DNA of 64,000 nucleotides from Lutjanus erythropterus (Eukaryota > Chordata > Actinopteri > Lutjaniformes > Lutjanidae), in contig CM034607.1 of NCBI GenBank assembly GCA_020091685.1, forward strand, positions 29,164,645-29,228,644. Reading direction: 5' to 3'. Positions 5,108 to 52,733 of this stretch are shown here, piece after piece (positions within the stretch are counted from its first letter, which is position 1; each line of letters begins with the position of its first letter). The translations under genes and the position numbers were made by a program. Below the pieces are notes generated by a model. It did not search any database, was not told where the DNA came from, and was given only the letters and a program-made list of their open reading frames with translations.

Positions 5108-5365
<258 letters not shown>

Positions 5366-5377
5366 TGACACATAGAC

Positions 5378-5380
<3 letters not shown>

Positions 5381-5452
<72 letters not shown>
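5381..5452 (+). repeat. (GT)36 microsatellite just downstream of the M2 exon donor
   Basis: There are 72 bases of uninterrupted GT beginning 20 bases after the last base of the M2 exon. In the transcript this is a (UG)n tract, the kind of sequence bound by TDP-43 and CELF-type splicing regulators (family knowledge). Confidence 0.95.
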
Positions 5453-5455
<3 letters not shown>

Positions 5456-6082
5456 TACCAGTGGTCCACATAGTTTTTAATGAGCAGGTTACTTCACTGG
5501 TCAGCCAATTAAAACCCTTTTGCTATAACACCATTTAATGACTGTCAATACGAAGTCAAGATGTTTTACTCATTAGAGATGCTGCATGAAGTTTCCATCT
5601 GACCATGACGATCAATATTTGGTCTCCGCTGTTCACTTTTTGAGCTCTGGCGGTTTACAGTCCAGTCAGGATTATTTATATATCACCAAGTCCAATAGGC
5701 CACAGCCATGCTGTCAGTTCTGAGAGGCTGTACTCAGGGAAAGTGGTGCTTTCAGCTACAACTGTAAATACTCATGTCAGTGTGCTAACAAGCTAATGTT
5801 TAGTAGGTATAATGTTTAGCATGTTTATAAGCCTAGTTTAGTTACATTTTGCAGATATTTGGTCATAAATCAAAGCACTGGAAATGTTATATAATTCAAC
5901 CTGAATGTCTGAATGCATCTAACTTCATATGAATCCTTGTTGAGACTCAAAAAAATCCCACAAATGTCAACCTCATGGTGGCGCTACAGAAAATGTCAGG
6001 CGGTCACCAAAGTTATGAGGGATTATGGGTATAGTCATTGATAATTTCATGGCAATTCATCCAATAGCCTAGTTTTTGAGAT

Positions 6083-6357
6083 TAGGGATGTTAATGATTA
6101 ATCATTAATTGATTAAATGCTGGTAAGAATTTAACAAATTAAAAATGTATTAATTGATACTTAAGCGATTAAGTGGCTGTAACTGTGCCTGATTATTTTG
6201 TCTGGCAAAGCCATTTGTTGAATAAGGAAACTGAGACAAAAAAGAGAGAGAAAAATGCATTTTATAGCTTATCTTATTTTATCTTATCTAATTAATGAAT
6301 TGATTGTTTGTGTTTTCAATTATTGGTTGAGGAAAATGCTCAAAATTTGCAGCCCTA
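6083..6357 (+). mobile_element. short hAT-like MITE (275 bp)
   Basis: The element starts TAGGGATG and ends CAGCCCTA, short imperfect terminal inverted repeats of the kind seen in fish hAT non-autonomous elements. The flanking 8-mers TTTGAGAT and GTTGAGAC match at six of eight positions, consistent with a decayed 8-bp target duplication. The interior is AT-rich with TTAATGATTAATC-type words and no ORF. The family assignment is inference. Confidence 0.5.
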
Positions 6358-6390
6358 GTTGAGACGTGTCAGTTTGAAATGGGAGACCAG

Positions 6391-7612
6391 TGGTGGAAGA
6401 AGCACTCAGATCTTTTACTGAAAGGGAAACATCTGTATTTTTCAACCTGGAGCCTATTTCACCATGTTGTCGTGTCTGAGTGTCTAATGTGTACAGCAAT
6501 TTTTGAAATTGGTCCAGTATTGAGCAGCAGCAGTGAGCTGCAAAAACAGGCTGTAATGTAATCCTTATGGACAATTGTGCCCGTCAAAATATGTCCATTA
6601 AAAATGTTTGTTTTTGCCGCTGACAGGCTCAGATTGTTAGTCTGTGTCTGACAACAGAGATAGACCTTTTTGGTACAGAGTAATATTTGTTTGGTTTAAA
6701 TCAGACACAGCTATTATATCGCTTTCCTCAAAACCACCTAATTCTGTAGAAACAGAAACTGCAGTTTTACTTTGCAGATCATCATAAAATACACTTAATT
6801 TACACCTGACAAAAACTCACCAATAATATTACATAATATGTAACAGTTCTGCATTAAAATGTCTAAATATGCTTGATATATGTTATATATTTTGTTGAGT
6901 AGTGTACTTACAATATCCCAAATGTTTCCAACAATGTTAAAATGCAGAGAAAACCATCATTTATTCAAGGTAGCAACGCGTTTCCTGCTTCCTAGTTGCT
7001 GTAATTTTATGTTGGATACTTCAGAGAGTGAGGAAGGAAGTCAGCAAATGTCACTGAGTGAGTCAAAGTTACCTTTTCCATGAAAATGATTTCTCCCTGA
7101 GTAATGTCAGATAGATTTCCATCAGTTTTGGTGGTTGTTTTAACAGTTAAGAAAACAACTCCCATGATCCCATGCTACTCCATGATGTCATCAAACTATT
7201 GTGAGAGACACCTACCAGCAGAACTTAGACATTTTATCAAAAGTAGAAGTACTTATTACGCAAAATGCCTCCATTCAAAGTGTTACATATTGGAATTTAA
7301 TTCCTGATTCACTACATCTAAGCAGCATATGAAGGTCAAGTCTGAGCTAATTTTTATCAACTGTATTTAGTGTTATGTAGTTTCATTAATAGCAATGCAT
7401 ACTTTATAAACTGATCACATGTTTTAGGCATAAAATCCTGATCTAAAAAGTAACTAATGCTGGTAAATATGATAAATGTAGTGGCATAAAAATACAGTAT
7501 TTGCCTCTTTACCTATGCAGTGGATTAGAAGTACAAAGAAGCATAAAATGGAAATACTCAAGTAAAATACAGGTACCTCAGATTTGTACTTAAGTACAGT
7601 ACTTGGTGGAAA
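6391..7612 (+). mobile_element. interrupted fish repeat with a second repeat inserted
   Basis: The left end (about 6391-6423, GTGGTGGAAGAAGCACTCAG) and the right portion (about 7225-7612, ending ACTTAAGTACAGTACTTGG) look like the two parts of one very common fish interspersed repeat that I recall as beginning with GTGGTGGAAGAAGTA and containing repeated AAGTACTT words. The roughly 800 bp between them begins GGGAAACATCTG and contains TTTTTGCCGCTGACAGGCTC, which recurs near 10.14 kb and inverted near 10.6 kb, so it is a different repeat. The order suggests nesting. No transposase ORF was seen. Confidence 0.45.
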
Positions 7613-8362
7613 TATTTGACTCTTGCAGACTGACCAGCAGTCTGTCCACGATGTTACACTTTCTATTCCAAGACTGTATACACACAGGAAACAAAGGCAA
7701 ATAGACTCACAACATATTACTTGCCTGTGTTAGAGCTAAAAAAAGCTCTCCCAAAAACCAGAACAACAGAATTTATCTTAGCCATCTGGTCGCCTTAAAA
7801 CTTAATTGGCTAAATTGATTGCGGGCACACTGCCGGAAATTATGTTTAGCGGGCTAAGATTGCAGCCAGAGACAGATGCATGGACGTCCTCGCCTAAAGA
7901 CACAAATCCTGGTCATAAAAAACTTTGGGGGAACAAAAAAAAAAAAAAAAGAGTAGAGTCATAATCACCAGAACGCTGCCTTCAGCATAATTCTTTTAAT
8001 AAACAATTACACTGGTGCAGTCTTAATCTGTTTGTTGATTTTACAAACACAATGTCGTTACTAGCAGGCAGCAGCGTCTGTAGCAGGTCCAAGCTTGGCA
8101 TGCAGATACCAAACAAAGGATGTGTTCATTTTTGAATAAAGCAGCATAGACAATAATTCTTACAAATACTGTAATATAAATAGTTTTGGTCATGCATCTG
8201 CTAAGTAATCACTGTTTTCCTGCATGTTCAGAGGAGAATGGTGACTTGAACGTGTGCTGTAATAATAACTTTGTAGGAAATAATCTGTAGTAGTAGCAGA
8301 AAATTACAGTGCATGTAACATCAAATGAAATGTAACACTGCTCCGTACTCTACTCCGCCCAG

Positions 8363-8472
8363 GTCAGTACTTTGCCAGTATAATGATCATCGTTGGGATG
8401 TCAGTCATCGCCACAGTGGTGGTTCTGCAGTATCATCATCACGATCCAAATGGAGGGAACATGCCCAAATGG
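8363..8472 (+). CDS. chrna7-like: alpha7-type nicotinic receptor subunit, exon encoding helix M3
   Basis: This 110-bp exon follows the M2 exon after a 3.0 kb intron. It completes the split codon (GGT) and reads [20 protein letters not shown], then the loop opening [16 protein letters not shown]. The hydrophobic stretch is membrane helix M3, and the HHHDP/MPKW segment marks the start of the cytoplasmic M3-M4 loop in alpha7-like subunits. The acceptor is CCCAG at 8358-8362 and the donor is GTGAGT at 8473. Its length matches my memory of the equivalent mammalian exon. The + strand ORF that covers this region continues into the intron in another frame and is not real protein. Confidence 0.95.
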
Positions 8473-11400
8473 GTGAGTCTGAGCTCAAACTCTTCATCAT
8501 AACCTCAACTGCACAATCAGTCATATGCCTCGTGCTTTCCAGCTTGTTATATCCTGTAAATGGTTTGTCTCCTCATTTCAGATATGGTATCTTGATTCTA
8601 TTAATCTCTACTTCAGCGTTAGTATCGTTCCTCCGCTCTGCCATTTTCAGTCACATTTCATCCATCTGTCAGAGCTACCTGTGCTCCTCTGCCAGTTTCC
8701 TTTCTCTTCTTTTTTATTCTCCGACTTCCTCGGCTGTGACTCATCCGGCAGTGTCAGTCTGCCTGAGCGTGTTCATCAAATGCTTCGCCACAGACTTCAA
8801 CAGGAGTGCTTTTCAAAGCGCCCTGGATATGTGGGCGGATTCGATTTGACTCACTCCCTCTTCATATTTTTCTTGCCTTCTTTTCAATACTAAAAAAACC
8901 CTTTTTACAAAAGTTTTGTTCTTTTGTGAATATATAGAAAATGAGCAACTGGTTAACTGAATGATTTTAATATTACTTCTGTTATGTTAATCACCAGATT
9001 TAATACATGGGATGACTTTGTTTGGCATTTTAAAGATGTATCTTCTTAACGATTTATGCTTTGACTGCAGAGAAAAACTGACAGGTCTCTATTTAATGAT
9101 TTAAGTACAAATAGCTCAGTTGACCGGGAGTGCAGATGCTGTATATATCGATATATTGCAAGGACGTTCCGTTGATGAATGGCCTGTTCAGACAGTGCGA
9201 TGGCCAATTAACAAGCTAATTGATGTGGTTCAGATGAGTGCATCGAACCAGCACAGTTCATAATTGCAGCCTGGACAAAAACAACATCAACGGCGGCAGC
9301 AACAGGGACTGCTACCTGGCCAGTAAACACACTCGGTGGAGACTAATTGAGCAGTCATCTGGACATTAGCTTCTCATTAGATGCCAGACACCCATCTGGA
9401 TGCTGTTGGGCCAATATGCCCTTTCAGGGGACATGTAGTCTTTTTTCCAAAGGAGGTTTGTTTTTGTGTTGTGGAAGCAGAGCAGAAAGGAAACAAGAAG
9501 GAACAAGGTTTACATATCAACTTGCAAGCAGCCAATCTTCCCTTTACCTCGGGGGTAAGTTTGTTATTTTTGAACTGGGTCCTATTTTTCCATGTTTCGG
9601 CATCTAAGTGACTAATGAGGACAGGACTGCCCCCTGCAAGACGAAGATTCAAATCATCAGTTGGAGACAGTAACAGGATAAAACAGATAGAAGCTTATGT
9701 AAATGCACAGGAATAACATTTCAATTAAGAATTATAAGTATGGGGAATTATAAATATATGTTGATATTTGCTGTCGTATTTATCAAAAAAGAAAATCCTC
9801 ATGACACCATGCGCTGGTGGTTAACTGATGAGAGAAGTTTTTTAGCTGCGCCATTGTGCACAGAACAATGCAACAGCACGACAGGCTGTAAATTTGTCTC
9901 TCTAAATCACCACAAACCACAAAACTACCTGTGATGGAAGCAGAGAAGAGTGATAGACTTTGTCTGTCTGATGTTTTCACATCAGAGATGGCAACTCTTA
10001 CAGGTAAAACTTACTCATGTTGGGTAAATTCAGTGTGGCGGACTGAAAAAAAGAAAGAATTGGAGAATATTCTGATAATCTGATTCGACTAAAAGAAAAT
10101 GAAAATCAAAACTGTGGACAGCGAGTGCGTCCACTAAATGTGCTTGTTTTTGCCACTGACAGGCTCAGACTGTTATTCTTGACAAAACCCATTACTGCCT
10201 CAGCAGCTCTGATTATTTGGTCAAAATAAACCCTTAATTCACCGAGGTAGATATAAAAATGTCTGTACATGCCGTTTCTTCCCCGCTGCTAATCTGATGT
10301 CCAACCTCCCTCTCACTCCTCTCCTGATATTTTCACATTGAACTCAATGAATAAACTGTTTATTTTGACCAAACCAGAGTTGCTGATTTTTTGAACAGTA
10401 GAAAGACAAGCTGAGACGTTTTTGGTGAATTTAATTTTGTTGGTGTTGAGTTTAAATGAAGATGACAGTGACAATGTTAAAATTATGCTTTTGCAAAGGG
10501 AGTCTGGTTTGTTTGGTGAGAGCAATGAAACAGCTGTTTCTGGTTAAACAAAACATCTGACTCTTAAAAAAAAAAGGTCTTACTCTATAGTGATCCTTTT
10601 CATAATGTCAGACACTTACAATAACAATCTGAGCCTGTCAGTGATAAAACACCCACTTTAAACAGACTTAATTTGACAGTACAAAGTTCACCCAGAGGGC
10701 AAGATAAGTTGTAGCTTAGTTTTGTCTCTCCTGGCTGCAGGGCTCTGAAGCACCTCAGGCTTGAAGGTCATTTATTATTATTATACAACAAAGGATTGTA
10801 CAACAAAACAGTTTTAGTTCCTTCATAATACACACAAAATACAACATATACTGTATATAGATAATTCATTTGATTCAGAATTAGATTGGATAAAAATATA
10901 AAACAAAATAAAAAACATATATACATACATGTTTACACCCAGGAAATATTTCTGTTCAGTTTCTGGGAAATATTGTCCATCAACTTTGACTGAGTTTGAG
11001 CATGAAGCATCATCAGTGTAAACAGAACCTCCTCCTCCTCTCGTCCTGCTGGAGTTTTGCGTCCTGTCAGAGTACAATCAGCCCCTCAGGTCCAACAGTC
11101 CGATCCAGGATGCAGTCGAGCAGGTCTCTCTGTGTGGACACAGCAGTCTCTGGTTTCCTGTTGTTTCTTCAGCCTGAGTCCCGTTTTGTCCGTTTCATTT
11201 TCTTGACTGGACCTCGTCCAGGGGCAGGCTGAAGTCCCAGCTGTAGCATAACTCTTAGCCCACACACCTCCGCTCCTACTGTGGTCGTCCGTGGCGGTGC
11301 CTCCAGCTTGTTTGAAAGATGCCGACTGTGTTGTTGATCGTCTCAGGGTCTGCTGCTCTTTAATCCAAACCCCACGCTTCCTCTTCTAATGCTAGAAGTG

Positions 11401-13352
11401 TATTTCTGTCATAGGAGATGCTTGTTTCAGCAGTAAAACCGAAAACATAGCTGATTACAGGAAAACGGTGGTGAAATTTTAAGAAGCTACCAGCCGTAGC
11501 ATCTACACGCACAGCTGCTCTCCCTCAATACTGGACCCATTAAAAAAAATATCATCCCCATTAGTCACTTAGATACAAAAAACATCGGAAAACATGTTTT
11601 TTTAAATGCTGCAGTGTACTGAAACATTATCGCACCTCATGAAACAGTAATCTGAATCAATCTCAATGATTCAATAGTCTAAATTTAATGTTGCCGTTTT
11701 AAGTTTCCTCTCTGCCAAAAATACAGTTCAAGCTAAAAAATCTTCTTTGCCTCAGGCGCTTTAACTGGGTGTCCCTGGTGAGGATCTCATACTTCTACTT
11801 ATACAAGCACAGCTGCATTTTGAAACAAGATGCAAGGTTAGAAGCAGCACCAACGTCAATCCATGACAAATGAAGCTATTTGCTAAGCTTTTAAATAATG
11901 TTATGTGAAGGTCATGATGTGTGGGTGGTTTTCAATGCCTCACAGATTTCTTATATTTCCTTTTCGTTCCCCCTATGCTGTGTTGCTCTTGCACTCTGTC
12001 CTCCTCTCTCATTTTTATCCAGTCTCTTCAGGTTCCAATAAGTTAAACTGAAGACTTTTAAAACATTTCTAAGGCCATTATAAAATGCAATTTAAGACCT
12101 ATTTCACATCCATTTTGGCAAAAAAGTATGACGTATTTGGTTTTATATGACTGATGTTTAGTTACCACGTGTAAATTTTTACTGTTGGCGTAGATCCAAA
12201 GCTCTCAGGAGGTTGCATACTGAGTTAACACTGTTAGTGCAGAGTGGGTCGTGCTGGGGCTGGACTTCAGTGATGGACTCATTAGCTGTAGATTCACAGT
12301 TGCGTGGCTGAAAATTGTCTTTCCGCTCCCCCTGATCAGCTGTTCACCTGTCCTAAATCAATAGGATAGGAGTATAGTGGTCTTATCTGCTCAGAGCAGG
12401 GTGTTTTAACATTATTCATGTTTAAATACCATCTGCTCCCAGCATTCATTTGTCGTGGGCAGACTATTAAACCCAGTCCATTCTAAAAGAAGGTGTTTTG
12501 TGTTAGGGGCAAAATAAGTTCAGTTACCTTAAAATGGCTTACATACAGCTCTACACCTTGCCTTCATTTAGTATTCGAGGATTCATTGATATGCAAATAG
12601 ACCGAGCCTCCCTGCACAGACCACACCCCCAACCCCCACCCTTATTCCTAAGAAGCTCCACCCAGATTCTCCTCTGTTTTTCTAACTAATCATGGTCACA
12701 TCCGGCTTCTCCTGTGAGCCGAGCATCACCGCTAATGATATGCATAGCACCACCCCCTCAGATAACCGGATTGGTTCCTTAGGTTTATGACATGATATAC
12801 CCAGCCTGACTCAATCAGCTTTTTTGAGACTGCCCTTTTGCGCTGCAGTTTCAAAGCAAGAAATGCTCAAACATGGCGTTTGCTGCTTACTTTGCCCCTG
12901 ATGTGTCCTGTAACACTTGAAAAAGCACCACATGGACATGTTAAACAGGTTATAAACATGATTTTAACTGGATCTTTAAGTAACCTGTGATGAAGTCTTT
13001 GCCACAGATGCACACTACATTTACTGACTTGCCCATCTCTACTGCACTTGTTGTCATCAGATAAAACTGATGTAAGTGGTAAGGGTATAGGGGAAGTGGG
13101 AGCATAAACAAAACTTTAAAACAATGTTGTGTTTATACACATATATTTGTTTCTAAACAATTTATTGTGGGGGACAACTCAATGTTTTTTAGAAGCTGGG
13201 ATGGACAGGCCCCCTCCATCCCGCCTGAGGTCGAAATTGTATTGAAGACATTTTAAGGCCTAAAATACAGATTATTGGATTCTAGACTTTGTAAGCTTTC
13301 CTAAGACCTCGTGGACGCCCTGTTATCAGTTCCTCTCTTTTTCTCTCTGCAG
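8473..13352 (+). other. intron between M3 and last exon
   Basis: No coding sequence was recognised. Fragments of the repeat containing TTGCCACTGACAGGCTCAG occur at about 9545-9620 and 10135-10190, and inverted at about 10570-10650. A segment at about 9170-9360 has CCAATTAACAAGCTAATTG-type homeodomain words, and one at about 12580-12990 contains ATGCAAAT and ATATGCAT octamer-like words. The ORFs across 8.3-11.2 kb have no domain I recognise. Confidence 0.55.
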
Positions 13353-14087
13353 GTGCAGCTCGTCTTACTGCAGTGGGTTGCTTGGTTCTTGCGTATGAAG
13401 CGGCCAGGAGAGAATGATGACCCAGAGCGGCCCCCGTGTGCCCCCAACTTGCGGCGCTGCTCCTCAGGTTCCCAGAGCGGGAGCATCCCAAACCCTCCGG
13501 ACCCCACCCTCCATCCGCTGCACCCACAGAACCTGGCACCTCTCCAAACGGGGCCCCTCCACGCGGGGCACCCTCACCTCCATGCCCAGTCCAGCACCAA
13601 CAACAACGGGAACCTTCTTTACATGGGCTTCCAGAGCATGGAGGACCCTTCGATGCTGTCGGAACCTGTCCAGAGGAATAACATCACCACAGGGCCTCCG
13701 CGAGTGGCAGGAAGCCCGCCTCCACACCTGCCATCTCAGTTCTGCGGCTCGCCACCACCTCCCACCCCCAATATGGATACAGGCTGCCCCAGCACTGTCT
13801 CCAGTGGCGGGGGCTTTGGCGTTGGACCCGGGGGGCTTGGAGGGTGCTCGACTGCAGGGATAGGAGACCCCCAGCTGCAGGCGATCCTGGAGGAGGTGCG
13901 TTACATGGCGGACCGTTTCCGGGAGCAGGACGAGGCCGACAGCATGGCCGACCAGTGGAAATTTGCAGGCGCTGTGATCGACCGCCTGTGTCTGGTGGCG
14001 TTCAGCGTTTTCAACATCATATGCACCATCTCCATCCTCATGTCTGCTCCCAACTTTGTGGAGGCTATTTCAAAGGACTTCGTTTGA
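13353..14087 (+). CDS. chrna7-like: alpha7-type nicotinic receptor subunit, last coding exon (M3-M4 loop, MA helix, M4, C-terminus)
   Basis: This terminal coding exon begins after a TTTCTCTCTGCAG acceptor and ends at TGA 14085-14087, giving 244 residues. It opens with [20 protein letters not shown], typical of the alpha7 loop. It then has about 130 residues rich in Pro, Gly, Ser, His and Asn that are poorly conserved, apart from a NGNLLYMGF motif shared with alpha7. The amphipathic MA helix follows ([15 protein letters not shown]), then M4 ([20 protein letters not shown]) and the tail [16 protein letters not shown]. Known role of the family: fast Ca2+-permeable cholinergic signalling at the plasma membrane, usually as homopentamers. 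The exon is far more GC-rich than its flanks. The loop seems about 70 residues longer than in mammalian alpha7 (from memory). The - strand ORFs here are shadows. Confidence is high for the alpha7 class and lower for which fish paralogue this is. Confidence 0.95.
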
Positions 14088-22726: not shown

Positions 22727-23517
22727 TTAAAGGAGCAATATGCAGCAATTGTGCACGAGCACAGCGGTCTAAACGGTGAGTTAGAGCCATAGACTGTATA
22801 TTAAATAGGTTGAAATAAGGGCTGCAGGATATGTTAGAAAAAAAAAAATCATATTGATGATTTTAACTCAAACTGTGACACAACATAGAACAAGATTAAG
22901 GCCAGAGCATCTCTGCAGCCACACATTACACTTGGCCATATTGCGATATTGATAATATTGTGATTAATTGTGCAGCCCTCGTTGAAATCCTATTTAATAT
23001 ACAATCCAGGGTTGAAGCAAGTTGAAATTTCAAAGGACGCCGCCGCGACCGCAGCGTTGTCTTCAGAGAGGTCAGTATTTCAACGTACCATGTTTCCTTG
23101 ACAGCAGTAAATATCTCACAAATTTCTCTTTTAAACATGATTTTGACAGGACTAATGACGTTTACTTTTATAATGCAGTTGTCAGTTTTCTGTAGGTGTA
23201 AAGCTAAGTTCAGCGACTGCCTGCTCACTGCCTGCCAGACTCCATTAACATATTGTTAAATTTAACTGTTATAAACTTCTACACCTTTAAAAAGATTATT
23301 GATGATTTCTTACAACTCATGAACAGACACTTACTCATTCAGCGAACATTCAGCATTAATTTAAGCTCTAATTAACATTAAATGAGAAAACAAAAACAGT
23401 TATTCCAGCCGGAATACAGATTTCACAGGACATTGCAGCGTTCCCTTGATCTCTGATGACATATCGTGGTCATTTTGTGATTTATTACAGTAAATATATT
23501 ACAGATTTCTCCTTTAA
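22727..23517. mobile_element. TTAAAGGAG-ended repeat, copy 1 (with a nested MITE)
   Basis: It starts TTAAAGGAGCAATATGCAGC and ends ATATATTACAGATTTCTCCTTTAA. The ends are imperfect inverted repeats (TTAAAGGAG against its complement). A second copy occurs at 52082-52733 with the same ends and shared interior landmarks (CTGCCTGCCAGACTCCATTA, ATTCAGCGAACA, CGGCATTAATTT-like). This copy is interrupted by a hAT-type MITE at 22817-22980. There is no ORF and the superfamily is unknown. Confidence 0.75.
22817..22980. mobile_element. 164-bp hAT-type MITE nested in the preceding element
   Basis: It is bounded by AGGGCTGCA and TGCAGCCCT and flanked by a perfect 8-bp direct repeat GTTGAAAT at 22809-22816 and 22981-22988. 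An 8-bp target duplication is the signature of hAT transposition. The interior has ATTGCGATATTGATAATATT, which I recognise from fish hAT MITEs. The equivalent site in copy 2 (near 52,162) has GGTTGAAAGTCC with no insert, which supports a real insertion. Confidence 0.85.
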
Positions 23518-31616: not shown

Positions 31617-32014
31617 TTAACCCTCTATGGTACCATGTTGCCCTCAGGCAACAAACCCATTTTTGCCCTGTCACATCTCCACAATGCATCCCTTTAAATC
31701 ATGCGATACTTTAAAAAAGAGGTAAAACCATAGGGAACCATTAACAATGCTTTAAGTTGTCACATGACCTCCAGGAAGCGATTTTGAAACCCTTCTTGGC
31801 GGGCTTTTTCTAAGGAGACAGCTCTGCTATCTTGCTGCAAAAAAAAGACTCTCAAAAAGTTATTTTTTGTCCCTTTTCCACCTGGAAAAAAATGTCTTCA
31901 CACTAATAGGTGAGTAAACTTTAAGTTTTGATAGTTTCATGCAACTTATTTACTAATTTAATAGTGGATACTTGTTAAAATGTAGCTGTTGCCCTGAGGC
32001 AACAACGTGCCATC

Positions 32015-32227
32015 ATGGAAAGTTGCAATGTTGCCTGTAACAGTGAACCATTATGGAATCACTATAGCAAACACAACACTGACCACTGGCCTATTTGGGT
32101 GGAGAAAAAGGGCAGATGCAGATACCCTGGATGTAAGGGTATAGTGAAATCACAGTGCACAAAATGTGTCACCTGCCTGTGCTTCACTCCTGAAAAAAAC
32201 TGCTTCATGGAGTTCCATAAGCACTGA
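32015..32227 (+). CDS. piggyBac transposase C-terminal Cys-rich domain ORF (catalytic core missing)
   Basis: This 70-codon ORF has an ATG start and a TGA stop. It encodes a zinc-binding Cys/His domain: C35 and C40 (GRCRYPGCKG), C48 and C51 (QCTKC), C54 and C56, C63 and H68 (NCFMEFH). Spacing and context (HWPIWVEKKGRC, then NCFMEFHKH) match the C-terminal Cys-rich domain of piggyBac transposases, which in characterised members binds the transposon ends. The catalytic DDD domain that normally precedes it is absent, and an in-frame stop lies just upstream (TAG in AATGTAGC near 31983). It may be the leftover last exon of a deleted transposase or a free-standing short protein. The coding frame has no stop or frameshift. 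A GTTGCCCTGAGGCAAC palindrome sits just upstream at 31988-32003. Confidence 0.7.
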   Translation: MESCNVACNSEPLWNHYSKHNTDHWPIWVEKKGRCRYPGCKGIVKSQCTKCVTCLCFTPEKNCFMEFHKH

Positions 32228-32510
32228 GCCGCAACACCACAAGTGATGGCAACACATGTCAGGAAAGACACGGGGGACTGACACAAAACATGCACTGAAA
32301 TGAAGCAGTGATGATCAAACACTGGAATTTGTTGTTTTTGTTTTTCAAATGGTTATGGTAATGGTTATCTTTGTTGATTTAAGTAGTTTAAAGTTTTATA
32401 CTTTACACATTTATTTCAATGGGTTGTTCCTAAATAGTACAATGTTGCCTACAGGCAACATTTCAAGAAACTTTTTAATTCTTAAATTCCTTTTAATCAA
32501 ACTTGAAAAT

Positions 32511-32963
32511 GAATTGTGACTTCTTTGATGTTATTAATATTTTCGTGCATATGTTTATGCAAATAACAATGTTCAAATTAAAAGAATGTTTTTCACTTAC
32601 GCACTATTATAGGCAAATGTTAGTCATGTGGCAACGAACCCCAAAAACTAAATCAAAATAAAATTTCTTCAGATTATGTTTATTTATCTATTTATGATGA
32701 TAAAAACACATTTCCTCACTGGCATCATAACAAAATTTATATATGACCATATATACATACATATACATACATACATACTGTTATGACTCATGCCATATAC
32801 ATGCACATATAAGGACTATGCATACATAGCATACATACATACATGTTATTATGAATTACATACAGATATGGATACATGCATACATACATACATACATACA
32901 TACATGTATACATACGCACATACATATGACTAAGTGCATACATTACATACATGTGATCATACA

Positions 32964-32994
<31 letters not shown>

Positions 32995-34188
32995 GAGCAT
33001 ACATACATATGAGTATATATTACATATACACTCATGTTATACATGTATACATAAGAGAATACATATATACATATGACTACATATATAGATATGAGCACAC
33101 ATACATACATATGACTACACAGATACATATGACTATACATACACACATGACTACATATACACATACATACATATATACATACATATATATGACTATTACA
33201 TACATACATACATATAATATATATATATAATTTTTTATAACTTTTTAAATTTAAAAATTTAAATGAATCAGAATTTTTGATGTTATTAGATTTAAGATAT
33301 GTTATATAATAATAATGCTCCAAATTAAAAGGAACGTTCTTTTCACTTATGTAATCTATTATATACAACAGTGTCATATAACCAACCCCAAAAAAACTCC
33401 AAAAATAAAATAAAATAAAAATAAAATTTTTCCAGATTATGTTTATTTAGTCTATTAGATATGTTACATTTCTCTCACCAACATTATAATGTGTACTATA
33501 GAGGGATATGACACACACATACACACATACATATAATATAAAGATACATACATCAGACTACACAAATACATAGATATACATACATGTGACTATGCATATA
33601 TACATACATATGAGCATAAATACATACATATATATACATATATGAGTATACATATATATATATACATATATACATATATATATATGATATACACATATAC
33701 ATACATATATACATACATATATATATAACACATGATACATATGGAGCATAGCATATATACATAAGTATATGTGTAATATGTAATATGATACATGTTACTT
33801 AAGGACTATACATGTACATATATGACTATACATTCATACATACATATATATAAGATATACATGTTAGTTACATATGACTACATACATGACTGTACATTCA
33901 TATGGACCTCATACATACACACATACATACATATGGTCATACATATGACCATGCATACATACATACATACATATATACAACATACATATGATACATACAT
34001 ATATGTTGCACATACATACATATGACCATATATACATACATATACACATACACATGAGAATACAGTACATATGATTACATCCATATACATGATGACAAGA
34101 TACATACATATGACTATACATATATATATTACATACATATGACTATACATACATACATATACATAGCACATATATATGACTACATACA

Positions 34189-34224
<36 letters not shown>

Positions 34225-34513
34225 TAAATTATTTTTATTCTTTTAATTTAAAATTAAAATAATTGTGATTTCTGATGTTATTGAATATTTTGCATATGTT
34301 TATGAAATAAACAATGTTCAAATTAAGGAACTGCCTTCTTTTTCACTTATGCACCATTATGGTACAATGTTGCCTACAGGCAACGAACCCTAAAAATTTC
34401 TAAAATAAAATAAAAATAAAATTTTCAGATTATGTTTATTTAGTCTATTTTGAGACATAAAACACATTTCCTCACTGGCATCATAATGTGTAACATAGAG
34501 GGATATGACTACA

Positions 34514-34544
<31 letters not shown>

Positions 34545-37500
34545 GACATACATACATACACATACATACATATGCACATACATGAGTATATATATACATA
34601 TTACATATGAGCATACATACATATATACATATGCATATGAGCATACATACATATATACATACATAAGGACATACATACATATGGCTGCTATTATTACATA
34701 TATACATATGGAGTATATATACATGTGAGCACATATACATACATACGCATATTACATAAGGAGCACACATACATATGACATACATTCATACATATGAGCA
34801 TACATATGAGCATATTTATATATACATACATACATATGACTATGTACATACATACTACATACATACATATGACTCATACATACATATGATAATGCATACA
34901 TACATACATACATATGACATACATATATACACATACATACATACATACATACATATATACTTAATGACTATACATATATACATACATACATACATATACA
35001 TATGACTATACATACATAGCACCACATGCATACATTCATAACTATGTATACATATACACATACATAAAGCATACATATGTCATATATGACTAATGCATGT
35101 AATACATACATACATATGATATGAGCATACATACATACATACATACATACATATGAGCATACATACATATGAGCATACATACATACATACATATGACTAT
35201 ACATAATATACATACATATGATACATACATATATACATATGACTATACATACATTAGCATACATACATATAAGTTATTAAGCACATATACATGCATACAT
35301 ACATACATACATACATACATGACTATACATACATACATACATATGAGAATACATACATATGACTATGTATACATACATATATACATACATACATATGACT
35401 ATACATACATATGACTATACATACATACATATGACATACATACATATACATACATACATACATATATATGATACATACATACATATATATATATAAATTT
35501 TTTATAATTCTTTTTAATTTAAAATTTAAAATGAATTGTGACTTCTTGATGTTATTGAATATTTGCATATGTTTATGAAATAAACAATGTTCAAATTGAA
35601 AAGGAACGTTCTTTTCACTTATGCACCATTATGGTACAATGTTGCCTACAGGCAAATAACCCCAAAACTTCCAAAAATAAAATAAAATAAAATAAATTTC
35701 TTCAGATTATGTTTATTTAGTCTATTTGAGACATAAAACACATTTCCCTCACTGGCATCATAATGTGTACCATAGAGGGATATGACATCATACATATATA
35801 CATATACATACATACATACATACATACATCAGACTACATATGCATGCATACATACATACATACATACATGGACTATGTATATATATACATATAGCATACA
35901 TACATACATACATATATATATGACTATGCATACATACATATGAGTACATATACATATATATACATACATATATACATACATACATACATATATGACTAAT
36001 ATACATACATACATATGACTACATACATACATATGCACTACATACAAATACATACATACATACATACATATTACATACATAATGCATACATATAATATAT
36101 GTATACATACATACATACATACACATATACATACATATATGACATACATGTATACATACATACATACATATGAGCATATATACATACATACATATGACCA
36201 TACATATGCTGCTATACACATACATACATACATACATATATAATATATACATATGACATACTATGCATGCATATATGAGATATACATACATACATACATA
36301 GTACATACATATATTGACTGTATACATATATTGTTATATATACATATATATATGACCATACATATATACATACATACATAATACATACATATACATACAG
36401 CACATATATGACATACATATACATACAATATACACATATGACTATATACAACATATATACATACATGGTATACATACATACATATATATACTATATACAT
36501 ACATACATACATGTTACATACATACATACATATATATATATAAATTATTTTATAATTTTTTTAATTTAAAATTCAAAATGAATTGTGACTTCTGATGTTA
36601 TTGAATATTTTTGCATATGTTTATGAAATAAACAATGTCTAAATTGGAAAAGGAACGTTTTATTCACTTATGCACCATTATAGGTACAATGTTGCCTACA
36701 GGCAACGAACCCCAAAATTTCCAAAAAAATAAAAATAAAATAAATTTTTCAGATTATGTTTATTTAGTCTATTTTGAGACATAAAAACACATTTCTCATG
36801 GCATCATAATGTGTACTAGAGGGATATGACTATACATAAGCATACATACATACATACATACATACATATGACATACATACATACATACATATATACATAC
36901 ATATATATGAGCATAATATATATATATACATACATACATACATACATACATACATACACATACATATAAGCATAAATACATACATACATACATATGAGCA
37001 TACATACATATGATACATATACATACATACAGAGCATATATACATACATACATGAGCATACATACATATGAGTACATTCATATATATACATATATATGAT
37101 CATGTATACATACATACATACATATGACTATGCATACATACATACATAACACACATACATACATATGACATATACACATATGATACATGCATACATACAT
37201 ACATATGATACATACATACATACATACATACATACATACTACATATGACTATACATACATACATACATACATATGATATATATACATACATATATATGAA
37301 CATACATACATCATATGACCATACATATATAAGTACATACATTATCATACATTACATACATACATTCATACATATGACCACATACATACATATATACATA
37401 CATATGAGTATACATGATACATACATACATATACATATGACTACATACTATATACATACATGCATACATACATACATACATACATACATATACATACATA

Positions 37501-37719
37501 CATAAGGACATACATACATACATGCATATATACATATATGATAATACATACATACATATGACTATGCACATACATACATATGATATACATACATACATAT
37601 GGAGCATGTATATATATGATATACATACATACATATGACTATACATATATACATACATACATATATGACTATACATATACATACATACATATATACATAT
37701 ATATGACATACACATACAT

Positions 37720-37751
<32 letters not shown>

Positions 37752-38733
37752 TTAAATTCTTTTCTATAATTATTTTTATTTTAAAATTTAAAATGAATTG
37801 TGACTTCTTGATGTTATTGAATATTTGCATATGTTTATGAAATAAACAATGTCTAAATTGGAAAAGGAACATTCTTTTTCACTTATGCACCATTATAGTA
37901 CAATGTTGCCTAGCAAATCTAACCCTAAAACTTCCAAAAATAAAAATAAAAATAAAATAAAAATTCTTCAGATTATGTTTATTTAGTCTATTTGAGACAT
38001 AAAATACATTTCCCTCACTGGCATCATAATGTACCATAGAGGGATATGACCATACATACATACATACATACATACATACATACATACAGACTATACATAC
38101 ATACATACATACATACATGTGACATACATATACATACATATGAGCATAAATACATACATACATACATATGAGCATACATACATATATACATACATACATA
38201 CATACATGCATATACATACATACATATGAGCATATACATACATACATACATACATACATACACATATGACTATGCATACATATAGGACATACATGTTATA
38301 CACATACATACATACATACTTATGACTATACATACATATATATATGACTATATACATACAAATATGTTATACATACATACATACATATGACCATACATAC
38401 ATAATGACTCATGCATACATTCATATGACCATACATACATACACACATAAGATACATGCATATATTTCATACATGACATGCATATACACATACATACATA
38501 CATGCAGCATACATACATACATATGAGTATATGCTACATATACATACATAATGAGCATATATACATACATACATATGACCATACATACATACATACATAC
38601 ATACATACATACACATGAGAATACATATACATGCTGACCATGCATCCACATATGAGCATACATACATACATATGACCATACATACATACATACATAACAT
38701 ATGACTATACATACATATACATACATATATACA

Positions 38734-38770
<37 letters not shown>

Positions 38771-39396
38771 ATTATTTTTTATAATTCTTTTTAATTTAAA
38801 TTCAAATGAATTGTGACTTCTTGATGTTATTGAATATTTTTGCATATGTTTATGAAATAAACAATGTTCAAATTGAAAAGGAACGTTCTTTCACTTATGC
38901 ACCATTATGGTACAATGTTGCCTACAGGCAACCAACCCCAAATTTCCAGAAATAAAAAAAAAAAAAATTTCTTCAGATTATGTTTATTTAGTCTATTTTG
39001 AGACATAAAACACATTTCTCACTGGCATCATAATGTACCATAGAGGGATATACCATACATACATACACATATACATACATATGACTATACATACATATAC
39101 ATACATACATACATACATAATGAGATACATACATGCATATGAGCATAAGAATGCTACATACATACATACATAAGATATGAGCATAAATACATACATACAT
39201 ACATATGAGCATACATACATACATACATATGCCAAACATATGACTATGTACATAAACATATACATATGACCATGACATACATACATACATATACATATGA
39301 CTCATACATACATATGCATGCATACATACATACATACATGACCATACATACATACATACATACATACATACATACATACATACTTATGACTATACA

Positions 39397-39427
<31 letters not shown>

Positions 39428-40197
39428 TACATACATACATATGGTCATACATATGACTATGCATACATACATGTGACCATACATATATTACATACATACA
39501 TATGACTACATATATTACATACATACATACATACATACATATGAGAATACATAGACATATGACTACATACATACATATGAGCATACATATACATACTACA
39601 TACATACATATGAATACATACATACATATGACTATACATACATACATACATACATATGACTATACATACATAAGGCATACATACATACATATATATTTAA
39701 ATTTTTCATAATTATTTTAATTTAAAATTTAAAATGAATTGTGACTTCTTGATGTTATTGAACATTTTTGCATATGTTTATGAATAAATAATGTTAAATT
39801 GGAAAAGGAACGTCTCTTTTCACTTATGCATACATTATGGTACAATGTTGCCTACAGGCAATTTAACCTCTAAAAATCAAAAATAAAATAAAAATAAAAT
39901 TTCTTCAGATTATGTTTATTTAGTCTATTTTGAGACATAAAACACATTTCCCTAACTGGCATCATAATGTGTACCATAGAGGGATATGAATGACTACATA
40001 CACATACATACATACATATACATATATATATACATATATACACTAGAATGTATACATTACATATATACATATATGACTGCATATATATATTGGTATATAT
40101 ATTAAAATACATACATATACATATGAGTATACATATACATATATATATACATATATACATACATACATAAGATATGATTTATATATACAAGTGAGCA

Positions 40198-40228
<31 letters not shown>

Positions 40229-42008
40229 GACTGATACATCATACATATGACTATATATATACATACACATATTACAGATAAGGACATACATATGACTACA
40301 CAGATTCAGAATTATACATACATACACACATACAGTTAATACATATATGGTCACATATGACTGTGCAGACATACATATTATATGATATATGAGATACATG
40401 GTTACACAGATATAGCTACATAATATGATATTCACATAAGGAGTATATATACATACATACATACATACAAGCATACATACATACATGAGTAGTCTACTAT
40501 ACATACATATGACCATGCATCCATATATATGAGCATACATACATACATATGACCACATACATACATACATACATATATGAATTATACATACATGGTACAC
40601 ATATATATATAATCACTTATAATTTGTTTAATTTAAAATTCAAAATGAATGTAGACTTCTTTAATGTTATTAATATTTTGTATATGTTGGTGAAGTAAAC
40701 AATGTCAAATTGAAAAATGAACTGCCTTATTCACTATATGCATCACATGGTAATGTTGTTTACAGGCAACTAATCCTAAAAATTTCAAAAAAAAAAAAAA
40801 TTCTTCAAGATTATGTTTATTTAGTCTATTTGAGACATAAAACACATTTCCCTCTACTGGCATCATAGAATGTGTAATTATAGAGGATATGACTATACAT
40901 ACATACATACATACATACATATACATACATACATAAGGACTACACATACATACACATATACATAATACATATGAGCATATATACATACATACATATGAGT
41001 ATACATACATACATACACACATAAGGAGTGGTAAACATACATACATACATATGCTGAGTACATATATGATACATACATATATAAGATATGTAATACAAGG
41101 AGCATACATACATAACATGATACATGCAGGACATACATACATATATGATGATCAGCATATGGCCAACATATATACCATGCATATAAACATACATGTACAT
41201 CATGCATACATACATACATGTATATTATGGTATGACTACACATACATATGATTTATACATGATATATATGACCATACATACATACATGTTGCTATTAAGA
41301 AATACTAATTATATACATACATACATATACATACATACATACATACATATGTACATACATAATTGTTACATACATATGACTCATGCATACATTCATATAA
41401 CCATACATACATAATAATAATATATATATGATACATATAATACAAACATATGACCATGCATACACATACATACATACATACAGAGCATGTACACATACAT
41501 ATATATACATGACATTCATGCATATTACATACATACATGTGACTATACATATACATATACACACATACATATACATACATACATACATACATATAATACA
41601 TATATATATGACTAGTGTACATACATAAGGACTATACATACATACATATAACTCATGCATACATATATAATTATACATATATATATATGACATGCATATA
41701 CATACATACATATGAACATATATGCATATATACATACATACATATGACTATGCATACATACATACATGTGACTATGCACATGTTACATACATACATATGA
41801 ATGTATACATACATACATATATAGATACATAAAGTTGAGAATACATACATACATACACTATGCATACATACACATATATGATACATACATATGGCATGAC
41901 TATACATATAATATGACTATACATACATACATATGACTCAATCATACATACATATACACATCATACATACATACATACATACATATATACATATATGTGT
42001 ATATGACT

Positions 42009-42040
<32 letters not shown>

Positions 42041-42968
42041 TTAAATTTTCATAATTATTTTTAATTTGAAAATTCTAAATGAATTGTGACTTTTGATGTT
42101 ATTGAATATTTTGGTTATGTTTACAAAATAAACAATGTCAAACGGAAAAGGAACGCTTTTTTCACTTATGCACCATTATAGTGTATACAAGTTGCCTACA
42201 GGCAACTAACCTCAAAAATTTCCCTAAAAAAAAAAAAAAAAAAATTTCTGATTATGTTTATTTAGTCTATTTTGAGACATAAAACACATTTCCTCACTGG
42301 CATCATAATGTAAACATAGAGGATATGACATCACATACATACACATACATACATACATACATATGACTCATACATACATACACATACATACATACATATA
42401 TATGAGCATACATATATACATACATATACATACATACATACATACATACATATGTAAGGAGTATAATACATACATATACATATATGACATACATACATAC
42501 ATACATACATATGAGTATATACATATGAGCATACATACATACATACGTACATACATAAGGAGTATATACATATATGAGCATACATTCATACATATGCTGT
42601 AAACATATGATTATGCATATAAAACATACATATACATATGACTACATGCATACATACATATTACATACATACATACATATGTGACTATCCATATGGGACT
42701 TTATGCATACATACATACATATGACTATACATATATACATACATACTTAGTGACTATACATACATACATACATACATACATATGTTACATATGACTATAC
42801 ATATATATAGACCATGCATACATTCATATAACCATACATACACACATACATACATACATATGGTCATACATGACCATGCATACATACACATACATACATA
42901 TGAGCATACATGCATACATATATATACATACATACATATGACCATGCATACATACATACATGTGACCA

Positions 42969-42999
<31 letters not shown>

Positions 43000-43214
43000 G
43001 ACCATACATATTAAGCATACATACATACATACATACATATGAGAATATATACATACATATGACCATGCATACATACATATGAGCATACATACATACATAT
43101 GACCATGCATAACAGAACATATGACTATACATACATACATATGACCATACATACATACATACATACATATGACCATACATACATACATACATACATATAT
43201 ACATATATATGACT

Positions 43215-43246
<32 letters not shown>

Positions 43247-43551
43247 TTAAATTCTTTTCATAATTATTTTTAATTTAAAATTTAAAATGAATTGTGACTT
43301 CTTGATGTTATTGAATATTTTTGCATATGTTTATGAAATAAACAATGTTCAAATTGGAAAAGGAACGTTCTTTTTCACTTATGCACCATTATGGTACAAT
43401 GTTGCCTACAGGCAACGAACCCCAAAAACTTCCAAAAATAAAAATAAAAATAAAATTTCTTCAGATTATGTTTATTTAGTCTATTTTGAGACATAAAAAC
43501 ACTCCAAACATTTTTATCCCTCACTGGCATCATAATGTGTACCATAGAGGG
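32511..43551 (+). repeat. about eleven tandem copies of the transposon's 3' end
   Basis: A segment of about 250-280 bp recurs. It starts near AATGAATTGTGACTTC, passes TTTATGAAATAAACAATG, the palindrome GTTGCCTACAGGCAAC and GATTATGTTTATTTAGTC, and ends CATCATAATGTGTACCATAGAGGG. The anchor AATTGTGAC or its equivalent is near 32511, 33262, 34258, 35531, 36578, 37793, 38806, 39734, 40645, 42078 and 43287, so spacing varies from 0.75 to 1.43 kb. In internal copies the terminal GAGGG is followed by ATATGAC and ACAT repeats; only the last copy is followed by TTAA. Intact palindromes remain at 34369, 36691, 38917, 42191 and 43401, with damaged ones at 35641, 37905, 39847 and 40755. The first two copies and the one near 40645 are the most diverged. 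Confidence 0.9.
32733..43246 (+). repeat. ten (ACAT)n microsatellite blocks separating the 3'-end copies
   Basis: The approximate blocks are 32733-33230, 33513-34222, 34510-35492, 35785-36540, 36831-37750, 38050-38770, 39050-39697, 39990-40612, 40890-42043 and 42330-43246. Each is mainly ACAT/ATAC tetranucleotide, interrupted every 20-60 bases by TATGACTA, TATGAGCA or TATGACCA, which gives a loose higher-order rhythm. Each block opens with ATATGAC directly after GAGGG and closes with TATATATA then an AT-rich AATTTAAAATTTAAAATG stretch. The long ORFs rich in Met, Tyr, Val and Cys, or in Thr, Tyr, Ile and His, are translations of the microsatellite and are not genes. Confidence 0.95.
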
Positions 43552-43555
43552 TTAA

Positions 43556-46588: not shown

Positions 46589-47325
46589 GTGTGAAGTGGC
46601 TGGGATGAGCATCAGCATCTTTTCGTCTGAGGCCATGGTTCTCGGCAGGAAACAGGTGGACTGTCTGAGTCCTTACCCCAAGTGAGGGAGTTCAAATATC
46701 TCGAGGTCTTGTTCTTGAGTGAGGGGACAATGGAGCGTGAGATGGGCCAGAGAATCGGCGCAGTGGGAACGGTATTGTGTTTGTTTTACTGCACCGTTGT
46801 GACCAAAAGAGAGCTTAGCCAGAAGGCGACGCTCTCAATCAACAAGTCAATCTTCGTTCCTCGTCTCACCTATGGTCATGAAGGGTGGGTCATGACCAAA
46901 GAACAAAATCATGGATACAAGCGGTCAAAATGGGTTTTCTCAAGAGGGTGGGAGGCACCTCCCTTAGGGATAGGGTGAGAAGCTCAGTCGTCTGTGAGGA
47001 ACTTGGAGTAGAGCTTCTGCTCCTTTGCGTAGAAAGGAGCCGGTTGAGGTGGTTCGGGTATCTCGTAAGGATGCCACCTGGTCGCCTTCCGAGGGAGGTG
47101 TTCCAGGCACGTCCAGCTGTGAGGAGGCCACGGGGGAAAGACCGAGGACTAGGTGGAGGGATTATATCTTCATCCTGGCATGGAAACGCCTCAGGATCCC
47201 CGAGTCAGAGCTGGTTAATGCAGCCGCAGAAAGGGATGCCCGGGGTCTCCTGCTGGAACCTGTTACCTCTGCAACCTGACTTCAGACAAGCAGTTGAAGA
47301 TGGATGGATGGATAGATGGAAATAA
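46589..47325 (+). pseudogene. LINE reverse transcriptase 3' end, frameshifted
   Basis: The reading frame starts around GMSISIFSSEAMVLGRKQVD and continues through EFKYLEVLFLSEGTMERE, RIGAVGTV, KRELSQKATLSINKSI and RLTYGHEGWVM. These are thumb and C-terminal motifs of a non-LTR retrotransposon common in fish. It then shifts frame near 46,910 (MGFLKRVGGTSLRDRVRSS, RLRWFGYLVRMPPGRLPREV) and again near 47,145 (RPRTRWRDYIFILAWKRL). An in-frame stop near 46,683 (CCCCAAGTGAGG) also breaks it. A short (GATG)n tail at about 47296-47320 marks the 3' end. It is 5'-truncated, as is usual for LINEs. The clade (RTE/Rex, L2 or I type) was not resolved. Confidence 0.8.
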
Positions 47326-52081: not shown

Positions 52082-52733
52082 TTAAAGGAGCAATATGTAA
52101 CAGCTGTGCATGCAAAAATGAATCCTGCAGTCCAAATAGCGAGTTGAAGCCACAGACTAGGTTGAAAGTCCTGTTCAATGATACGATCCATGTTTGAAGT
52201 GAGTTGTTTCCCCTCAACCCTCCTCTGCAGACTTGAGGAAGCTCAGGCAGGCTGCAAGAGTGCTGCAGGAGCGCAAAATGCACTCAACATTGTGAACTGA
52301 CAATGACAAGTGGCATCAAGTCCACTGTAAGTTGATCAGCTGTTAACTATCAATTATCTGTCAATGTAAGCTAAGCCTGTTCACCTGAAAACAAAACTAA
52401 ACTTCAGAGTGTGTATTTTCGAAGCAGTGGGCTGAAGTGGCTGCCTTCTCACTGCCTGCCAGACTCCATTAACATATTGCTTAATATAACCGTTAAACAT
52501 CTGCGCCTTTTACAAGATTATTAATTATGTCTAACGACTCATAAACAGACACTAACTCATTCAGCGAACACTCGGCATTAATTTGTACTAACAATTAACC
52601 TGAAAAGGGGAAACAAAGGCATTTATTCCGGACCGAAATAGAAAGGAGTTGATGTCTAAGATGCGAGCATTTCAACTCAAATCTGTCATTTTATGATTAA
52701 TTACAGCAAATATATTACATATTTCTCCTTTAA
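52082..52733. mobile_element. TTAAAGGAG-ended repeat, copy 2 (uninterrupted)
   Basis: Same family and orientation as 22727-23517: it starts TTAAAGGAGCAATATGTAAC and ends ATTACATATTTCTCCTTTAA. It lacks the nested MITE, with GGTTGAAAGTCCTGTTCAAT continuous across the site, and so represents the empty-site form. Non-coding. Confidence 0.75.

Follow-up and report, generated by a model that had tools for sequence, protein, structure and literature searches.

The window analysed here is a stretch of 64,000 nucleotides from the fish Lutjanus erythropterus (NCBI GenBank assembly GCA_020091685.1, contig CM034607.1, positions 29,164,645 to 29,228,644 of the forward strand). Positions 31617-43555 of the window (11,939 bp) are occupied by a single piggyBac-type element that has TTAA on both sides and perfect inverted ends of 13 bp; it starts TTAA-CCCTCTATGGTAC and ends GTACCATAGAGGG-TTAA. 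An exact-match search of the window located TTAACCCTC at 31617 and GAGGGTTAA at 43547; the sole other occurrences of these two, at 29239 and 22044, lie in the wrong order for a pair. The sequence CCCTCTATGGTAC is present exactly at 31621 on the + strand and, on the - strand, at 43539 and in four inner units (35767, 38031, 39035 and 39971). The perfect 13-bp ends, the TTAA and the many genome copies rule out a chance inverted repeat. The element consists of an 843-bp left end and body followed by eleven ~280-bp copies of the right end, R0 to R10, all in a single orientation and separated by ten ACAT-type spacers, as follows.

31617..31633, + strand: left TTAA and 13-bp terminal inverted repeat CCCTCTATGGTAC
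31617..32459, + strand: left end and body, 843 bp
31979..32227, + strand: 82-codon open frame, its last 52 residues a Cys-rich piggyBac transposase tail
32460..32725, + strand: R0, body-adjacent right end, inner type, 13-bp end degraded in this assembly
32726..33229, + strand: ACAT spacer 0, 504 bp
33230..33507, + strand: R1, right end, untyped, with GAGGG at 33501-33505
33508..34225, + strand: ACAT spacer 1, 718 bp
34226..34502, + strand: R2, right end, inner type
34503..35494, + strand: ACAT spacer 2, 992 bp
35495..35779, + strand: R3, right end, inner type
35780..36539, + strand: ACAT spacer 3, 760 bp
36540..36823, + strand: R4, right end, inner type
36824..37754, + strand: ACAT spacer 4, 931 bp
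37755..38043, + strand: R5, right end, untyped by script, without the ~10-bp terminal-type segment in the alignment
38044..38769, + strand: ACAT spacer 5, 726 bp
38770..39047, + strand: R6, right end, inner type
39048..39699, + strand: ACAT spacer 6, 652 bp
39700..39983, + strand: R7, right end, inner type
39984..40614, + strand: ACAT spacer 7, 631 bp
40615..40886, + strand: R8, right end, inner type
40887..42044, + strand: ACAT spacer 8, 1158 bp
42045..42323, + strand: R9, right end, inner type
42324..43249, + strand: ACAT spacer 9, 926 bp
43250..43551, + strand: R10, outermost right end, terminal type, 13-bp end intact
43539..43555, - strand: right 13-bp terminal inverted repeat and TTAA

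A first-pass annotation of the same letters had described a piggyBac element in which one TTAA-flanked pair of 13-bp inverted ends encloses about eleven copies of the right end, the internal copies ending GAGGG then ATATGAC and only the outermost GAGGG-TTAA. The single enclosing pair is indeed perfect, and GAGGG-TTAA is confined to the outermost unit of the window array. The internal copies do resemble the true right end: a probe made of the outer one (43231-43555) matched ten further copies, with starts from 32473 to 42025, and the window units are 63-97% identical among themselves. The proposed internal ending was right in part, as GAGGGATATGAC is exact in five of the ten inner units and the remaining five are variants, R0, which adjoins the body, having lost its 13-bp end. 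Since ATATGAC and ATATGAG recur as words within the spacers, the right end passes straight into the satellite with no TTAA between them. Tandem arrangement of many separate elements was rejected for the window because the inner units carry no left end; locus L034, described below, is the exception. The palindrome GTTGCC-N4-GGCAAC occurs at window positions 31637, 31988, 32444, 34369, 36691, 38917, 42191 and 43401. The first three copies belong to the left part and the others to five of the eleven right ends; the palindrome is a possible transposase binding site.

Searches of the assembly (937.6 Mb, 444 contigs; match counts are lower bounds) revealed a dispersed family. The left end has at least 40 matches at 98-100% identity, the window counted (40 of 142 candidates scored), the right end at least 41 (40 of 293 candidates scored) and the body at least 40 (40 of 99 candidates scored). 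The left end and body of the window (31617-32459) are 96.6-99.5% identical at 28 other places, one of them over 466 bp only. Inspection covered 30 distinct places, 20 as 10-kb stretches and nine from search loci, plus the window. Thirteen carry a compact form consisting of left end, body and one right end, ~1.17 kb where measured (L012, L013, L015, L016, L021, L023, L026, L031, L032, L035, L039, L041 and L042). Another thirteen carry an array form, with left end, body, n units of right end plus ACAT satellite and a last right end (the window, L010/L024, L011/L038, L014, L020, L025, L027, L028, L034, L036, L037, L040 and L043), and four are cut by N before the form is readable (L029, L030, L033 and L044). 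Both forms lie at many different places with TTAA ends, so that the same-genome search suggested by the first-pass annotation returned array loci with differing unit numbers as well as the compact form. An intact outer right end pairs with 32 of 48 left-end or body places, the other 16 being unpaired; the paired spans measure 1135-1177 bp at 15 places, 1349 bp at one and 2.1-31.3 kb at 16 (some with N inside). Nine of these 16 long spans lie outside the inspected array loci, two of the nine being the gap-cut L030 and L033. N runs begin inside the element and reach the end of the 10-kb stretch at L027, L029, L030, L033, L036 and L044, and L040 has a 77-base N run inside the element; gaps in this assembly may often be due to arrays.

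The piggyBac identity given in the first-pass annotation is upheld by the transposase remnant. The last 52 residues of the 82-codon frame are 81% identical to the C-terminus of protein P0001, which carries DDE_Tnp_1_7 (PF13843) and matches two transposase entries in the PDB, one of them piggyBat; the 82-residue frame alone had no Pfam or PDB match. A short terminal inverted repeat starting CC[C/T]T is a piggyBac hallmark in the passages of PMC2872659, and the CCCTCTATGGTAC pair has this form. TTAA, present on both sides in the window, also starts the first left end at 28 of 29 places (the match at the exception, L021, begins 9 bases in) and follows the outer right end at 20 places; L040 ends TTAT. 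A Helitron or other rolling-circle element is ruled out by the perfect 13-bp inverted ends with TTAA on both sides. The transposase tail alone is found at at least 54 places in the assembly, 74-84% identical to P0001 (54 of 107 protein matches), and no match extending beyond the tail, the catalytic domain included, exceeded 48% identity to P0001 (131 of 162 candidates scored for both results). As only the tail is kept and longer matches reach at most 48%, the family looks non-autonomous and is probably moved in trans. It is like a miniature inverted-repeat transposable element (MITE) in being multi-copy, without a complete transposase and, in its compact form, homogeneous in size; the array form breaks this homogeneity and has the features of a transposon-borne satellite, with an array inside the element boundaries whose copy number differs between insertions. 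Viral contigs searched with two DNA patterns and P0001, and a protein probe across the junction, gave nothing informative. Two equal-scoring piggyBac-like 544-codon frames, ~93 kb apart and 35% identical to P0001, were observed at C14:1056356-1057231 and C14:1149297-1150172.

The right ends fall into two classes, a terminal type, AAAAACACTCCAAACATTTTTTCCC, and an inner type, AAAAACACATTTCCC. A ~10-bp segment is present in right ends before TTAA and missing, with one exception, from those followed by a spacer. In a table of 62 right-end units (those that contained N or measured under 255 bp were dropped), terminal-type ends stand before TTAA in 20 of 20 cases and inner-type ends in 0 of 33, 31 of the latter preceding ATATGAC-type satellite and two another sequence; nine units are untyped. 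Across the assembly, there are 39 exact terminal-type right ends with TTAA (0 for a reversed-pattern control), and the inner-type right end plus ATATGA has exact matches at 11 places, spread over 10 loci, against 0 for its control, which adds five loci (C10:23.54M, C11:0.77M, C18:11.07M, C20:7.19M and C23:23.52M). The right end next to the body is of terminal type in 13 of 13 single-end copies and of inner type in 10 of 10 typed arrays. The 5' edges also differ: CATAATT marks all eight satellite-preceded right ends before TTAA, and the 26 satellite-preceded ones before ATATGAC read TATAATT (20), CATAATT (3) or are unreadable (3), while body-adjacent right ends have another edge, of class AAAATTC, in 21 of 24 cases. 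Unit 3 of L043 has, by eye, a degraded terminal-like end before TTAA. The claim that the element had amplified its own 3' end holds for the right-end copies with their ACAT spacers, with the amendment that the inner units are a sub-class without the ~10-bp segment. The variant CATAATTA was rejected as a mark private to the window; it occurs in L010 too and is no proof of local spread.

Evidence that arrays moved came from a foreign insert. The same MITE-like insert of ~570 bp, with ends TTCAATCAGGA...TCCTGATTGAA, lies at the same spot of the satellite, inside a spacer, at L025 (C8:29.05M; oriented 2341-2940), L028 (C8:40.45M; oriented 1691-3930) and L034 (C17:31.81M; 5382-5942), and its copies are 94.5-98.6% identical. 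The satellite variant to its right is the same at all three loci; to its left, L025 and L028 share one sequence and L034 is different or noisy. Within the L028 copy we observed a further insert of ~1.6 kb with GGGTACCC near both its edges. Comparison of element flanks (left ~150 bp at 21 loci, right 1.5 kb at 12 loci) gave one match overall, 39 bp at 79%, between two loci outside the insert trio. Exact copies of a 45-bp landmark in the satellite occur at L025 (twice), L028, L034, L037 and L043, and L036 scores 85/90, with 20 block shuffles of the window array peaking at 62/90. Spacers were aligned in 15 chosen pairs, and all 13 between-locus pairs and one within L043 scored above all 60 block shuffles (z 2.2-14.7); a pair within L025 failed to exceed them (z 1.7). 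ACAT spacer 9 of the window is collinear with spacers of L025, L028, L037 and L043, its scores exceeding those of all 60 shuffles, and among the window's own spacers the order exceeded all 60 in 10 of 12 chosen pairs. A shared array ancestor that moved accounts for the insert, landmark and spacer order common to these loci, which independent growth at each site cannot explain. On the sequence evidence, the array form itself appears to have moved, and its unit number has altered since. The first-pass annotation had suggested that the array might be part of a mobile unit, which the arrays at many sites, the shared insert and the unrelated flanks support, and had left open growth before or after insertion; both apply, as arrays stand at many sites, the insert at three, and unit number and spacers differ.

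Turnover of units is visible within and between loci. Two right ends lie to the left of the shared insert at L025, one at L028 and five at L034, and the two spacers of L043 are 97.5% alike, compared with 93.8-95.1% to those of L036, L037 and the window. Hybrid units (L043 unit 2, and inner units of the window with a terminal-class 5' edge) fit unequal recombination between right ends. Because the reciprocal product of such recombination is an element with one right end, some compact copies may be collapsed arrays. At L038 (C17:22898725-22908724, reverse complement), part of the array (3767-9307) switches back and forth between full and truncated right ends, an arrangement resembling a higher-order repeat that none of the other inspected loci shows.

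The family appears young and its arrays noisy. The tree of left-end bodies is shallow, with a median tip branch of 0.36% and every fork below the support threshold, and 20 terminal-type right ends are a median 0.39% off consensus with a median of 0% indels, L021 and L032 being worse. In 24 inner-type units, taken as those preceded by satellite (one, L038 unit 1, is actually body-adjacent), the medians are 6.1% substitutions and 3.9% indels. Unit divergence was rejected as a measure of age given the terminal-type median of 0.39% against single inner units of up to 20%. Deletions mostly adjoin an identical base (152 of 217 deleted bases), and cleaner units exist: L034 unit 6 (0.4% substitutions) and L025 unit 2 (1.2%) among satellite-preceded inner units, and the body-adjacent inner-type units of L036, L040, L027 and L028 (0.4-1.6%), with indels of 0-2.4% in these clean units. 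Assembly noise probably accounts for most of the divergence within large arrays, and noise limited to large arrays looks like unpolished long-read consensus; real hypermutation is a possible other source. The count of eleven units in the window, although it agrees with the first-pass figure, is therefore provisional.

Taken together, these data make it quite probable that the family exists in two forms, that the array form arose once, and that it was moved in trans as one cargo with its unit number changing. The arrays have in common the satellite junction, the deletion class of the inner right ends and landmarks in the satellite, and three of them share a foreign insert as well, as a single origin would leave them. 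Since no TTAA adjoins the inner right ends, the transposase would pair the left end with the outermost right end and carry the whole array, and the unit number would shift when right ends (~300 bp) and satellite recombine unequally.

Several findings weigh against this picture. The left end and body recur within the array at L034 (C17:31809265-31819264, at 9181-9958) and at L045 (1668-2273), which for L034 the simple model does not predict; the recurrent left end at L034 comes after satellite (...CATATGATAT, then CTCTCTATGG) and has ACAT-like words in place of bases. Past the L034 repeats, weak matches to the tail, at 52-69%, extend as far as 31826.8 kb on C17. The class rule has irregular cases: L043 unit 2, untyped by the script, is terminal-like by eye and is followed by ATATGACC; the outer right end of L040, dropped from the class table for its Ns, is of terminal type before TTAT; and the first right end of L037 is truncated and has a terminal-class 5' edge. 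The landmark has a weak match in the window (64 by local alignment, where the highest control score is 62), and spacers 2 and 4 of the window beat the shuffles as a pair, yet a rotated spacer scored higher. The right flank of L034 was not reached in the flank comparison, each insertion is judged from TTAA ends and unrelated flanks within one genome, and on the left-end tree, where no fork is well supported, arrays and singles do not form separate groups.

How the first array arose is more speculative. We tentatively suggest, as one possible origin, that one copy took as its target a TTAA within another copy's right end and that satellite later filled the cleavage point, piggyBac cleavage falling at GAGGG^TTAA. 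Nested insertion with fill-in at the cut would leave the layout observed, in which satellite starts straight after the right end and, before seven of eight outermost array right ends, ends at a TTAA matching the position of a TTAA in the body. A satellite-free ancestor with two right ends would then carry a GAGGG-TTAAATTC junction, and GAGGG-TTAAATTCTTTT would likewise be the junction of such an ancestor. Telling against this origin, five TTAA lie within ~40 bp and that at the founding junction may be chance. Equally tentative are insertion into ACAT satellite at a non-TTAA site, consistent with the ATAT that precedes the degraded left end at L034, and backward template switching.

A bolder version, more doubtful again, makes the transposase the maker of a mobile macrosatellite, the satellite sitting exactly at the cleavage point of a nested insertion and the product being a size-variable, self-expanding transposon. 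Satellite would lie between one right end (GAGGG) and the TTAA opening a second right-end fragment; fill-in would have removed the inner cut site, so that any later jump would depend on the outermost end and take along all that lies within it. Right ends in tandem would provide both homologous stretches for unequal exchange and additional sites for the transposase to bind, allowing growth and shrinkage between jumps with mobility kept.

Against transposition as the means of spread stands ectopic recombination or gene conversion among inserted single-right-end copies, which we regard as unlikely. The lack of supported forks and the mixing of arrays with singles on the left-end tree (8 changes for arrays, where shuffles average 8.9 and 177 of 500 are as low) make room for it, the almost identical bodies would make conversion easy, and a body-adjacent right end that is terminal in singles and inner in arrays looks like a replaced segment. 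However, conversion would need interchromosomal tracts of several kb to ~20 kb at many sites with flanking homology of merely ~840 and ~300 bp, and arrays do pair on the tree (window/L025 at 93/79, L028/L037 at 94/79), below the support threshold.

That the tandem units are an artefact of long-read mis-assembly is very unlikely. The 24 noisy inner-type units with their deletions next to identical bases, the N runs that start inside elements at the loci named above and the second left end of L034 with its ACAT-like words would suit an artefact, but the architecture recurs at 13 places with clean inner units, the same junction and a common insert with matching satellite flanks. Mis-assembly is a question for unit counts, not for the existence of arrays. 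Independent growth of each array in place after insertion of a single-right-end copy, to which the right-end alternation of L038, the near-identical spacers of L043 and the body-containing repeats of L034 could point, is scarcely credible, as the GAGGG-ATATGACC junction, the ~10-bp deletion class, the landmark and the MITE-like insert are common to different sites and need a shared array ancestor, the insert alone already disfavouring it.

Elsewhere in the window, an open frame at 13305-14087, which looks like an exon, resembles by eye part of a nicotinic acetylcholine receptor subunit of alpha-7 type, and frames at 46631-47325 resemble, also by eye, a LINE reverse transcriptase fragment. Positions 23217-23517 and 52441-52733 form a direct repeat pair, 76% identical over 306 bp.

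Satellites are thought often to derive from transposons, but the stage between, in which a tandem array still travels within its transposon, is rarely observed together with both forms and an internal tag. In the family described here, compact and array forms occur in one assembly, and an insert tags one array lineage at three sites. The family makes testable the choice between transposition and conversion, the rate at which unit number changes and the effect of repeated ends on mobility. Such elements may also leave gaps and noisy sequence in assemblies.

We compared the family with known systems, likening Xstir, Tetris and miDNA4 by description, not by sequence. Xstir is reportedly the work of Hikosaka and Kawahara (2004), and miDNA4 is said to come from Scalvenzi and Pollet. 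In the passages cited, Xstir of Xenopus is a piggyBac-type MITE with tandem arrays whose simple, array and composite forms co-exist (PMC2872659, PMC12628747), as several forms do here; what repeats in Xstir is internal MITE sequence, whereas here a whole right end with its terminal repeat alternates with ACAT satellite. CMITE elements of Acropora corals are likewise described as piggyBac-related MITEs at TTAA sites, in tandem arrays ascribed to replication slippage (PMC2872659). Their full-size ~100-bp MITEs stand in tandem, whereas here (L034 apart) right ends repeat and one left end and one outer right end enclose the array. In Tetris/TIR-220 of Drosophila virilis, terminal-region tandem repeats of a non-autonomous DNA transposon seed satellite-like arrays (PMC4079207), a likeness to the arrays here; Tetris is a foldback element with ~220-bp repeats in its terminal inverted repeats, and the passages cited describe neither a piggyBac type nor complete ends joined by microsatellite. 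miDNA4 of Xenopus tropicalis shares a satellite of variable copy number inside a MITE (PMC12628747, PMC9659126), but is of Tc1/mariner type, and its satellite is a captured tandem repeat, not the transposon's own end. For piggyBac-1/piwil1 copies of Malawi cichlids, movement of a long segment has been proposed via the element's own end and a further end-like sequence (PMC11753138), a pairing with a more distant end like that envisaged here; the cargo there is a host gene, and tandem arrays of ends are absent from the passages cited. PMC2872659 also cites large piggyBac arrays in Aedes, and transposon-derived satellites are reviewed in PMC9659126, PMC12628747 and PMC6947457. Titles and abstract openings gave no account of a piggyBac right end amplified with microsatellite, a weak negative as subscription literature lay mostly outside the search. 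Transposon-borne satellites, and transposon termini as seeds of satellites, are thus known kinds, and the form that the first-pass annotation called unfamiliar is close to them. What differs here is the unit, a complete right end plus satellite, repeated within one TTAA-flanked pair of ends and dispersed through a young family.

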